Shown here: positions 3,052 through 27,466 of the stretch, piece by piece
Layout: every line of letters starts with the position of its first letter
How positions within the stretch are numbered: position 1 is the stretch's first letter
Assembly (NCBI GenBank): GCA_944349805.1
Contig: CALVNP010000034.1
Span: forward strand, 1-38,431
Reading direction: 5' to 3'
Length of the DNA: 38,431 nucleotides
DNA from: an uncultured Clostridia bacterium
GTDB lineage: Bacteria; Bacillota; Clostridia; Christensenellales; UBA1242
Program-made: the position numbers and the translations under genes
The notes under the pieces: model-generated
Databases searched by the model: none
Told to the model about the DNA's origin: nothing
What the model saw: the letters and a program-made list of their open reading frames with translations, nothing else

Positions 3052-4317
3052 ATGGAAACAAATAAGAAAATACCATTAGCTGAAAGAATGAGACCAAATT
3101 CATTTGATGATTTTGTTGGTCAAGAACATATTGTTGGTAAGGGTACACTTTTAAGGAGAGCAATAGAAATTGGAGAACTTGGAAGTTGTATTTTTTATGG
3201 TCCACCTGGAACGGGTAAAACAACACTTGCAAACATTGTTGCCAAACAATTGAAGGGAGAATTCCGAAAACTTAATGCAGTTTCTAGTGGTGTTAGTGAG
3301 GCAAAAGAAATTATTAAAGAAGCAGAAAGATTAAAGGAAATGTTTGGTACTCAAACATACCTTTTGTTAGATGAATGTCATAGGTGGAATAAAGCACAAA
3401 GTGATTGTGTTTTGGAAGCGATTGAGAAGGGTAGCATAATTTTTATTGGTTCTACAACAGAAAATCCTTTTACAAGTATGACAAGAGCTATCGTTTCAAG
3501 GTGTAGAGTGTTTGAATTCAAGGCTCTTGAAAATAATGATGTTATAAAGGCGATGAAAAGAGCTCTAAGCAATGATATCATCTTGTCTAAAATGCCCATT
3601 ATTGTTGAAGATGACGCATTAAAACATTTTGCTTGGGCTTGTAGTGGAGATGTAAGAATGGCATTAAATGCATTAGAACTTGCAATTTTAACAACTCCAT
3701 TTAATGACAAAAAAGAAATTTACATAGATAAAACGATTGCTGAACAATCTATTCAAAAGAAAGCACTTTCCATTGATGAAAATCAGTACTATGATATGCT
3801 TAGTGCCTTTTGTAAATCTATTCGTGGCTCTGATACGGAAGCTGGATTGTATTGGGCTCAAAGAATGATTAAAGCAGGGATAGACCCAATGATTATTGCT
3901 AGAAGGCTTGTTGCACATTCAAGCGAAGATATAGGAATGGCAGATAGTAATGCTCTTTTACTTTCTACAAGCGCTATGTATGCCGTAGAAAAGATGGGCG
4001 CACCAGAAGGATTAATTCCACTATTTCACGCTATAATCTATGCTTGTGAAGCTGAAAAATCCAATTCAGTAATTGTTGCAAGAGATTTGGCAGGAGATGA
4101 CGCAGAAAATGTTAGAGATGATAATGTCCCAGATTATTTAAAAAATCATCCTAGTACTAATGATACAAAACATATAAAATATAAATATCCACACGATTAT
4201 GGTGGGTACTGTAAGCAGACTTATATGCCTGAAAAGCTTAAAGATAGGGTATATTATAAACCAAGCAAAAATGGAAAGGAAAAAAACTTAATTAGAAAAA
4301 AATTTAAAAGCAATTAA
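3052..4317 (+). CDS. rarA: Replication-associated recombination protein A (AAA+ ATPase, RarA/MgsA)
   Basis: A 421-aa clamp-loader-like AAA+ ATPase related to DnaX and RuvB, acting at stalled replication forks. It opens with the family start PLAERMRPNSFDDFVGQEHI. Walker A is GPPGTGKTT (about residues 51-59), Walker B is LLLDECHRWNKAQ (family norm DEIHRFNKAQ) and sensor 1 is IGSTTENP. The Arg finger lies in AIVSRCRVF. The C-terminal tetramerisation region includes GLYWAQRMIKAGIDP and YPHDYGGYCKQTYMP. ATG 3052 is the natural family start, yet it has no RBS and sits where transcription should begin, so the mRNA is probably leaderless. A bidirectional terminator follows. Confidence 0.95.
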   Translation: METNKKIPLAERMRPNSFDDFVGQEHIVGKGTLLRRAIEIGELGSCIFYGPPGTGKTTLANIVAKQLKGEFRKLNAVSSGVSEAKEIIKEAERLKEMFGTQTYLLLDECHRWNKAQSDCVLEAIEKGSIIFIGSTTENPFTSMTRAIVSRCRVFEFKALENNDVIKAMKRALSNDIILSKMPIIVEDDALKHFAWACSGDVRMALNALELAILTTPFNDKKEIYIDKTIAEQSIQKKALSIDENQYYDMLSAFCKSIRGSDTEAGLYWAQRMIKAGIDPMIIARRLVAHSSEDIGMADSNALLLSTSAMYAVEKMGAPEGLIPLFHAIIYACEAEKSNSVIVARDLAGDDAENVRDDNVPDYLKNHPSTNDTKHIKYKYPHDYGGYCKQTYMPEKLKDRVYYKPSKNGKEKNLIRKKFKSN

Positions 4318-8311: not shown

Positions 8312-8632
8312 TTGAACTTAGAAGAAGTTGTAAAATTAAATGAACTTTTTGATGCTTATGGAGAACTTTTAACTCCTTATCAAAAGGATATTCTATCTGA
8401 CTTTTTAAAGTTTAATTTGTCTTTTAGTGAAATTGCAGAAAATAGAAATGTAAGCAGGCAAGCAGTATTTATTGTTTTAAATAAGTGTATAAAAAAACTT
8501 GAAGAATACGAGAAAAAAGTAAGAGCAGTAAAAATTAGAAATGATTTTAATAATAAAATTTCTGGCACTATAAAACTTTTAGAAATTGGAGAAGTAGGAA
8601 AGGCTCTTGATAAGTTAAAAGAGGAGGTTTAA
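8312..8632 (+). CDS. ylxM: YlxM/p13-like SRP-associated helix-turn-helix protein
   Basis: A 106-aa UPF0122 protein. The sigma-70 region-4-like fold is visible as LTPYQKDILSDFL followed by SFSEIAENRNVSRQAVFIVL (about residues 20-55), and the C-terminal half is a charged helix. In streptococci YlxM stimulates Ffh/SRP GTPase activity (family knowledge), which fits the one-base overlap with ffh. TTG 8312 is chosen as start because GGGAG lies 7-8 nt upstream; an in-frame TTG at 8291 is inside the 5' hairpin. It heads the long ffh-rpsP-trmD operon. Confidence 0.9.
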   Translation: MNLEEVVKLNELFDAYGELLTPYQKDILSDFLKFNLSFSEIAENRNVSRQAVFIVLNKCIKKLEEYEKKVRAVKIRNDFNNKISGTIKLLEIGEVGKALDKLKEEV

Positions 8633-25785: not shown

Positions 25786-25860
<75 letters not shown>

Positions 25861-25889
25861 AAACTTGTTAGAGATAACAAGTTTTTTTA
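25861..25889 (+). terminator. Intrinsic terminator after tRNA-Gly
   Basis: AAACTTGTTA / TAACAAGTTT stem with a GAGA loop and a T7 tail directly after the CCA. Confidence 0.9.
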
Positions 25890-25900
25890 TTTCAAAAGAA

Positions 25901-26031
25901 AGAACAAGCGACCCCTGCCGAAAAGATGGGGGACCCCAAAAACTTGAAACGATGTGAAAAGTTTTAGGGGAGCGAAGAAAACATCGGAGCGAATAAATTT
26001 CACGAAGTGAAACGAAAGCGAAGATTGTTCT
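25901..26031. ncRNA. Candidate structured non-coding element (131 nt), unclassified
   Basis: No ORF with an RBS is present. AGAACAA (25901-25907) pairs with TTGTTCT (26025-26031) and closes the element. CCCC (25912-25915) can pair with GGGG (25928-25931). CCCCAAAAACTT (25934-25945) pairs with AAGTTTTAGGGG (25959-25970) with one mismatch. In its loop CGATGT (25950-25955) is complementary to ACATCG (25981-25986), giving a possible pseudoknot. TTTCAC-GAA-GTGAAA (25998-26012) is a further hairpin. GCGAA recurs four times. GCGACCCCTGCC (25908-25919) is the reverse complement of 12 nt of tRNA-Gly (25823-25834). No promoter is seen between the tRNA terminator and the element. It could be an RNA, a MITE-like intergenic repeat, or a relic. 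Confidence 0.45.
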
Positions 26032-26144: not shown

Positions 26145-27395
26145 CTACATTAATTTTTTAACAATTAAGCTGACATTTTCAAATGTGTGGTCTTGGTCAC
26201 TTTTGTTTACAATTTTTAAAACTGAATAATTAGATTGAGTTTGATATATGAATGATTTTTGTAACATATAATTATTTGATTCTATTGGTGATATTATTGC
26301 ACTTTCGCTTTGTGGTATTTCTTCACCATTAGCTTCAGCAATTAATATAATTGGCTTGTTGGAAGGGGCTGAAACTGTGGTATTATATGTTATTTCATAT
26401 AATCCCTTTCGCAATATTATATCTGTTTCATTATCATTTGATATATCATTGCCTGAACTTATTGTATTTAATGTGTAGGGGATTGCAGATTTATTACTTA
26501 AAGAAGGTGTTGCTGTTGTAGTAAACGCTGCTGCTTGCAATGTTGTTAAGGTTGAACCACTAGGACCTGTAGGGCCCGTTGGACCTGTAGGACCTGTAGG
26601 ACCTTCTTCTCCCGTTGGACCGGCGGGACCCTCTGCACCTGTGGCACCGTCTGGACCTGTAGGACCCGTTCGTCCTGTTGCTCCTTCATCACCTGTAGGA
26701 CCTGTTGGACCTGTAGGACCCTCTGCACCCGTAGGACCTGTTGGACCCTCTGCACCAGTAGCACCATCTGCACCTGTAGCACCATCTGCACCTGTAGGAC
26801 CTGTTGGACCTGTAGCACCCGTTGGGCCTGTAGGACCTTCTGCACCTGTGGCACCCTCTGGACCTGTAGGACCCGTTGGTCCTGTTGGACCTGTTGGACC
26901 TGTAGGACCTTCTGCACCCGTAGGACCTGTTGGACCTGTTGCACCACTTGGACCTGTTATTCCTTCTGGAATTGCAAAATCTAATATTACAGCTTGGTCT
27001 GTACCTGCATTTGTTACAGTGGCATCTTGACCAGCATCAATTGTCCTTGTTGTTCCAACATTAACAGTTACTACACTTGGACCTGTAGGACCTGTAGGAC
27101 CCGTTGGTCCTGTTGGACCTGTAGGACCTGTTGCACCACTTGGACCTGTTGCACCTGTTAAACCTGTAGGACCTGTTGCTCCAATTAAACCTGTTGCGCC
27201 TGTTGGACCTGTTGGACCAGTAGGGCCTGTAGCACCCGTTGGACCTGTAGGACCTGTTGGACCTCCACTAGGGCCTGTTGGTCCTGTTGGACCAGTGGGG
27301 CCTGTTATTGTACCCCCACAGTTTGGGGTTATAATGGGAGATGGAAATATATTACCAGAACAACAATTGTATCTTCGTCTATTTAAAAAGCTCAT
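26145..27395 (-). CDS. Collagen-like repeat surface protein, BclA/exosporium type
   Basis: A 416-aa protein. N-terminal residues 1-31 ([15 protein letters not shown]..., three Cys) precede 25 Gly-X-Y triplets (about 32-107, with one extra Gly). A 37-residue non-collagen insert (about 108-144, [19 protein letters not shown]) follows, then 45 more triplets (about 145-279), mostly GPT. The C-terminal domain of about 137 residues looks like the beta-rich BclA/C1q-like trimerisation domain ([12 protein letters not shown]). Such proteins form filaments on clostridial and Bacillus spores. The start at 27395 has AAAGGAG; a GTG at 27413 would lie upstream of that RBS. No signal peptide or LPxTG is present, consistent with mother-cell coat assembly. 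Repeat slippage can change its length. Confidence 0.9.
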
Positions 27396-27466
27396 ATTTT
27401 TCTCCTTTATCACTTCATTTTATGTCATAATCCTTTATTATGTTAATTTGAAGGTAAAAGGGAAAT

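Follow-up and report, generated by a model that had tools for sequence, protein, structure and literature searches.

The structured sequence downstream of the tRNA-Gly gene, at 25908-26031 of the window, belongs to what we consider, with a probability of about one half, to be a new class of mobile element: a gene-less RNA whose internal, target-complementary guide programs its insertion site. Such an element would occupy tRNA genes of Clostridia, keep its target by duplication, have core relatives in Bacteroidales and in phages, and be moved by a new enzyme or ribozyme. The window is the whole 38,431-nucleotide stretch of DNA that was analysed (contig C34 of a 0.93-Mb genome, completeness 98.7%). 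Within it the element consists of two parts, a 12-nt guide (g) and a core (S) (Table 1). A preliminary description of this DNA had recognized a real element but bounded and explained it wrongly; two of its alternatives, an undescribed structured RNA and a dispersed repeat, hold together.

Table 1. Parts of the window copy and of its target gene. G and T are the 5′ and 3′ flanks of the insertion point; d is the segment that follows T.
Feature	Position	Strand	Basis or remark
tRNA-Gly (GCC), intact target gene	25786..25860	+	ARAGORN and Rfam RF00005
Target segment, G plus first bases of T, GGCAGGGGTCGC	25823..25834	+	Exact reverse complement of 25908-25919
Insertion point	before GTCGC at 25830	+	Inferred from relatives; junction defined in G002, G004 and G006
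T + d: tRNA 3′ half, terminator-like hairpin (AACTTGTTAGAGATAACAAGTT and T run), spacer	25830..25907	+	Direct-repeat comparison with related copies
Guide g, GCGACCCCTGCC	25908..25919	+	Antisense to tRNA-Gly anticodon stem 3′ strand, variable loop and start of T-stem
Variable linker, g to S	25920..25927	+	0-12 nt among copies
Core S, structured RNA, ~105 nt	25928..26031	+	Covariance models R1/R2
S hairpin I (CCCC.AAAACTT ... AAGTTTT.GGGG)	25934..25970	+	Fold and covariation
S hairpin II, imperfect long stem	25971..26031	+	Cap TTTCAC/GTGAAA (25998-26003/26007-26012)

The core is a conserved structured RNA

Sequence comparison shows S to be a structured RNA that is conserved among copies. A first covariance model of the core was built from four congeners. 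Over 94 distinct S sequences the 27 pairs were formed in 93.0% of cases, compared with 69.1 ± 0.6% after shuffling, and double changes were present at 24 of the 27. The covariation score of 0.478 fell to 0.124 in shuffled controls and to at most 0.062 with partners slid; the alignment was fitted to the model and thus favours the structure, yet the contrast is very large. Unsupervised mutual information returned as its top pairs the same nested Watson-Crick pairs, and phage copies analysed independently gave the same structure (0.531 versus 0.169). The covarying structure comprises two hairpin domains only. A tandem G.A/A.G mismatch lies at the base of hairpin II (67/79 and 51/80 sequences), a base that is weaker in the window copy than in the family, and a GGG run preceding hairpin I could pair alternatively with CCC.

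The copy search, covariation test and Rfam comparison proposed in the preliminary description yielded dispersed homologues in this genome and its relatives, very strong base-pair covariation in S and no match to any Rfam 15 family at the gathering cut-off; permissive Rfam scans returned chance-level matches only. The proposal of an undescribed structured RNA is thereby upheld. Much of what had been read from the window copy is also borne out: the element is G/C-rich relative to its surroundings (G+C 44%, against 31% for the window), lacks an ORF, and has a stable fold (−34.7 kcal/mol, z −2.8; equally good in 1 of 200 shuffles) with both the main stem CCCC-AAAACTT/AAGTTTT-GGGG, carrying one A.A mismatch (25934-25945 with 25959-25970), and the small hairpin TTTCAC/GTGAAA.

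Other details have to be revised. The motif GCGAA, said to recur four times, occurs three times in the region. The two halves of a suggested loop pseudoknot exist (CGATGT at 25950, ACATCG at 25981), but 9% of shuffles contain one by chance and four related species do not conserve it. A 7-bp closing helix (AGAACAA/TTGTTCT) is unlikely to have arisen by chance (P 0.003) but is private to this genome; in relatives, and according to family-wide covariation, the partner of its 3′ strand is AGAAAACATC inside the core. For the MITE-like repeat with AGAACAA ends, the dispersal was correct and the motifs are in place (AGAACAA at 25901, TTGTTCT at 26025), but they are unsupported as ends.

Copies are dispersed and often lie by tRNA genes

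In covariance-model searches, 87 of the 309 family genomes were found to carry the core. With 7 genomes matched in a spread sample of 398, it is patchy in the phylum; carriers are draft MAGs throughout, copies are non-independent and E-values are rough. Plain blastn matches below ~35 bits in family genomes were discarded as unrelated (L009 checked). Copies occupy several unrelated loci, and empty sites are seen in relatives of a phage, the behaviour of a dispersed mobile repeat.

A tRNA gene ends at most 160 nt upstream in 42 of 91 distinct copies, 38 of them sense and 4 antisense. The neighbouring genes encode tRNA-Gly, -Leu, -Lys, -Arg, -Thr, -Ser, -Asp and -Phe. Further contexts are the start of 16S rRNA (L056, L111), the 3′ end of a protein gene (L123) and a site resembling the 3′ end of 5S rRNA by the look of its sequence alone (L121). 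As some copies are antisense to a tRNA gene or not beside any tRNA, processing from a tRNA transcript, which had been offered as an explanation, is unsupported in general. This genome holds four copies: the one in the window at tRNA-Gly(GCC), one each at tRNA-Leu(CAG) and tRNA-Leu(CAA), and a fourth that is antisense to tRNA-Arg(ACG). All four have an antisense segment that matches their target. A Bacteroidales genome (G718) contains 18 core copies, several directly abutting tRNA gene edges, and one from other Clostridia (G721) contains 16, with clean duplications. Among the congeners, G002 (its contig C17 matches DVOJ01000007.1 in length) is a Clostridia MAG from chicken gut, Candidatus Caccopulliclostridium gallistercoris (genus described in PMC8035907).

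Several neighbours of the copies deserve mention. In genus g47 (L073, L074, L075, L089, L119) a second dispersed repeat, ACAGTCATTT...AAACTCCTGCG...CGAGCCT, adjoins many core copies, and at L093, L120 and L126 the core adjoins a common ATTCTGAGCGTTAGCGAAGAATCTC-type repeat. The window copy adjoins a gene for a collagen-like GPTGPTG repeat protein (26145-27413, minus strand); a similar protein is encoded near the same tRNA cluster in congeners (L046 9539-11041, L047 10106-11410). Short ORFs ending in KPEGFVGRGGTTD or reading ERKTRFELATLALARQ (L204; L046 5558-6534) correspond to translated element RNA or tRNAs and are likely database mis-annotations.

Insertion usually duplicates the target and follows a guide rule

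Comparison of copies defines a target G|T-d that, once occupied, reads G T d [g S] T d′. The right flank T, starting at the end of S, was found duplicated within 200 nt upstream in 41 copies; about half of all copies have no detectable duplication. In 32 of these 41, g is complementary over 11-19 nt to G and T together, with G contributing 7-14 nt and T its first 4-9 nt. Exchanging guides among unrelated targets produced a match in 1 of 1,406 combinations, and the rule holds over 23 target groups. It extends to other Clostridia, at tRNA-Leu (L317), tRNA-Lys (L325) and antisense to tRNA-Ser (L334).

The duplicated T-d measures 60-120 bp. In the young copies L092, L059, L068, L137 and L117 its left and right versions are almost identical and their homology ends at the start of g or a few nucleotides from there, which identifies g-S as the inserted unit and T-d as a long duplication of target sequence. 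Because this piece is duplicated, the target gene remains intact. Copies are insertions of g-S that leave the target available. The window copy has lost the right-hand T-d that lies to the right of S in relatives; its guide equals the reverse complement of the tRNA-Gly segment at all 12 nt, a length reached in 0 of 2,000 shuffles and a feature that the preliminary description had overlooked.

Tandem units occur at L004, L105, L132 and L134, and we infer that they are why several assemblies break inside S. In the right flanks at L054, L080 and L047 another g, this one without S, comes after the duplicated T-d; this arrangement suggests that S may have been lost from earlier tandem units.

These features bear on the idea that the element is a degraded integrase-type element at a tRNA attachment site, in which the tRNA 3′ repeat would represent attL/attR and g a coincidence or an arm site. 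A direct repeat of the tRNA 3′ end does flank the element in relatives, but targets lie at many positions within the tRNA and on both strands, there is no integrase gene between the repeats, and conservation of S spans phyla. In addition, g fits each different target, and the guide-swap test strongly disfavours this explanation, which we regard as highly improbable.

The guide changes together with its target

The tRNA-Gly target exists as the variants GGCAAATGTCGC, GGCAAGGGTCGC, GGCAGAGGTCGC and GGCAGGGGTCGC, and g matches each at 12 of 12 positions. Where relatives pair tRNA GGCAAGGGTCGC with the guide segment GCGACCCTTGCC, both sides have changed together in this genome. At tRNA-Leu(CAG) the arrangement tRNA-d-g-S-T has been kept in five congeneric species; T is the same as the tRNA within each species and differs between species, and over the five g tracks its tRNA (GCGAAATT/AATTTCGC versus GCGGAATT/AATTCCGC). 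Such upkeep would fit selection for the guide-target match (homing), continual re-insertion, or correction by gene conversion. In G002, ~2.2 kb with a serine-recombinase-like fragment lies between tRNA-Leu(CAG) and the element (L157 4700-7000, on G002:C9). This fragment was rejected as a partner, being a separate degraded insertion.

The compensatory change that keeps complementarity at tRNA-Gly and tRNA-Leu could also be expected of a host regulatory RNA, whose g, stabilized by S, would be antisense to the neighbouring tRNA and tune its level or protect it. However, copies are found on the antisense strand, by rRNA and mRNA ends and in phage operons, are often absent in sister genomes, and come with tandem insertions and target duplications, which makes a host function of this kind very unlikely.

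The maintained match at the right-hand T, identical to the tRNA within each species, has a further possible reading. In a very small splicing ribozyme g would be an internal guide sequence (IGS), forming P1 with G and P10 with T; the ribozyme would excise [T-d-g-S], joining G to the right-hand T, and spread by reverse splicing. The order of guide (3′ exon part), guide (5′ exon part), core and 3′ exon is indeed that of a group I IGS, and removal would restore the tRNA. But S, at ~105 nt, lacks every core helix of group I, Rfam intron families gave no match, and antisense copies could not splice the tRNA transcript. Since the left T already keeps the gene intact, splicing is also unnecessary. 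We judge this explanation unlikely.

Reverse transcriptase, Y1 transposase and TnpB are missing from most carriers

Reverse transcriptase (RT; PF00078) was found neither in this genome nor in most carriers, including G721 with its 16 copies. It occurs in a minority of carriers and is not linked to S, and it was rejected as the mover; by length and neighbours, the RTs present appear to be of Abi/DGR-like type. Of the features of a target-primed (TPRT) retroelement, the long, variable target duplication (60-120 bp) is present and an RT in the carrier is lacking. Y1 transposase exceeded its curated cut-off in 3 of 27 carriers; with Y1 mostly absent and target duplications present, a non-autonomous element derived from IS200/IS605 was rejected. 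The TnpB zinc ribbon, the domain searched for as the sign of an OMEGA nuclease, was absent from 17 of 18 genomes and sub-threshold in one.

The lack of RT in most carriers, this genome among them, favours mobility as DNA only. S would then be a hairpin-forming single-stranded DNA, inserted at replication forks by template switching or by a novel ssDNA transposase, and g an inverted target copy made at insertion that serves as a DNA guide or is a scar. The product can be expressed as three template switches, and targets lie on both strands of tRNA genes (38 sense, 4 antisense). Against this stand the RNA-like tandem G.A/A.G motifs of S and the precise endpoints recurring over 23 target groups, which are hard to obtain by unguided template switching. 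Moreover, g still matches the tRNA long after insertion though S diverges; unless it undergoes continual correction, g must therefore be more than a scar. Mobility as DNA is a possible but rather doubtful explanation.

A proposed mechanism

In its anatomy the element is like a product of insertion directed by a guide, with staggered breaks. We favour a model of RNA guide and template with a polymerase acting in trans over the DNA-hairpin and small-ribozyme models. That the element is a guide-directed, non-coding mobile element whose g-S transcript carries its own guide is a tentative reading, to which we give slightly less than even odds. The guide would hybridize to the target strand where a gene, mostly one for a tRNA, is transcribed and opened. 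A bound protein or a host nuclease would make a nick close to the G|T junction, and S would then be joined by its 3′ end to T, or copied beside it, by a polymerase supplied in trans; host DNA polymerase I and a transient reverse transcriptase are possible candidates. Copying would run as far as the 5′ edge of the hybrid formed by the guide, and T-d would be filled in when the staggered breaks are repaired. With g copied along with S, every insertion would keep the address of its own site; insertions could re-home or form tandems, with a rare move to a new site when g changes. Against this mechanism stand the enzyme searches, which turned up no mover, the roughly half of copies that show no duplication and the phage copies that mostly have no guide. 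In addition, cores in genus g47 are near-identical and carry different guides, so some route to gaining new guides is required. As guide and target can be read from the sequence, the mechanism is directly testable.

If correct, the mechanism would represent a new way of rewriting genomes at chosen sites without a protein gene, and possibly a natural precedent for programmable insertion. It would also add a new, abundant class of structured RNA in gut bacteria and phages.

Phage copies

In phages, core copies are located at gene junctions. One such junction is filled in L236 and empty in ~50 relatives, making S an insertion polymorphism in phages. The 12-nt guide is missing from most phage copies, small hairpins in L219 and L228 being the exception, and the guide may therefore be particular to the branch that targets tRNA genes. 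When a phage collection was searched, the window copy had no match and the phage-type core one weak match; the genus-level core motif was in none of the viral contigs.

Phage L204 has at least four core copies between late genes (2756-2877, 3182-3307, 3606-3744, 8380-8505). There S begins at the upstream gene's stop codon, and its 3′ end provides GGAG before the next ATG; with this placement S may also act in translation.

Comparison with known systems

No similar element was found in the open-access literature searched. In working principle the element resembles group I introns, in which a short guide by the core likewise pairs across the junction, with the 5′ flank on one side and the initial bases of the 3′ flank on the other, and for which tRNA and phage genes are also favoured hosts. 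This comparison with group I reverse splicing (PMC3984707) concerns the P1/P10 logic and not membership: the core is ~105 nt with another secondary structure, lacks P3-P8 and does not match RF00028, and the target gene is kept intact by duplication instead of splicing.

MITEs, PATEs and REP/BIME sequences share with the element that they are short, non-coding, dispersed and structured. In contrast to them, it has a target-specific guide of 11-19 nt, a 60-120 bp duplication and strong RNA covariation, and no matching transposase ends. Eukaryotic SINEs and target-primed retroelements (LINE, R2, group II retrotransposition) likewise give non-coding, RNA-like insertions with long, variable target duplications, whereas the present element is bacterial, has a built-in antisense guide and resides mostly in carriers without RT. 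Finally, the OMEGA (IscB/TnpB) and HEARO RNAs also combine a guide and a structured scaffold tied to a mobile element. Here, however, the zinc-ribbon search showed no TnpB partner and HEARO gave no match, and the guide repeats the target in inverted orientation rather than being native flank.
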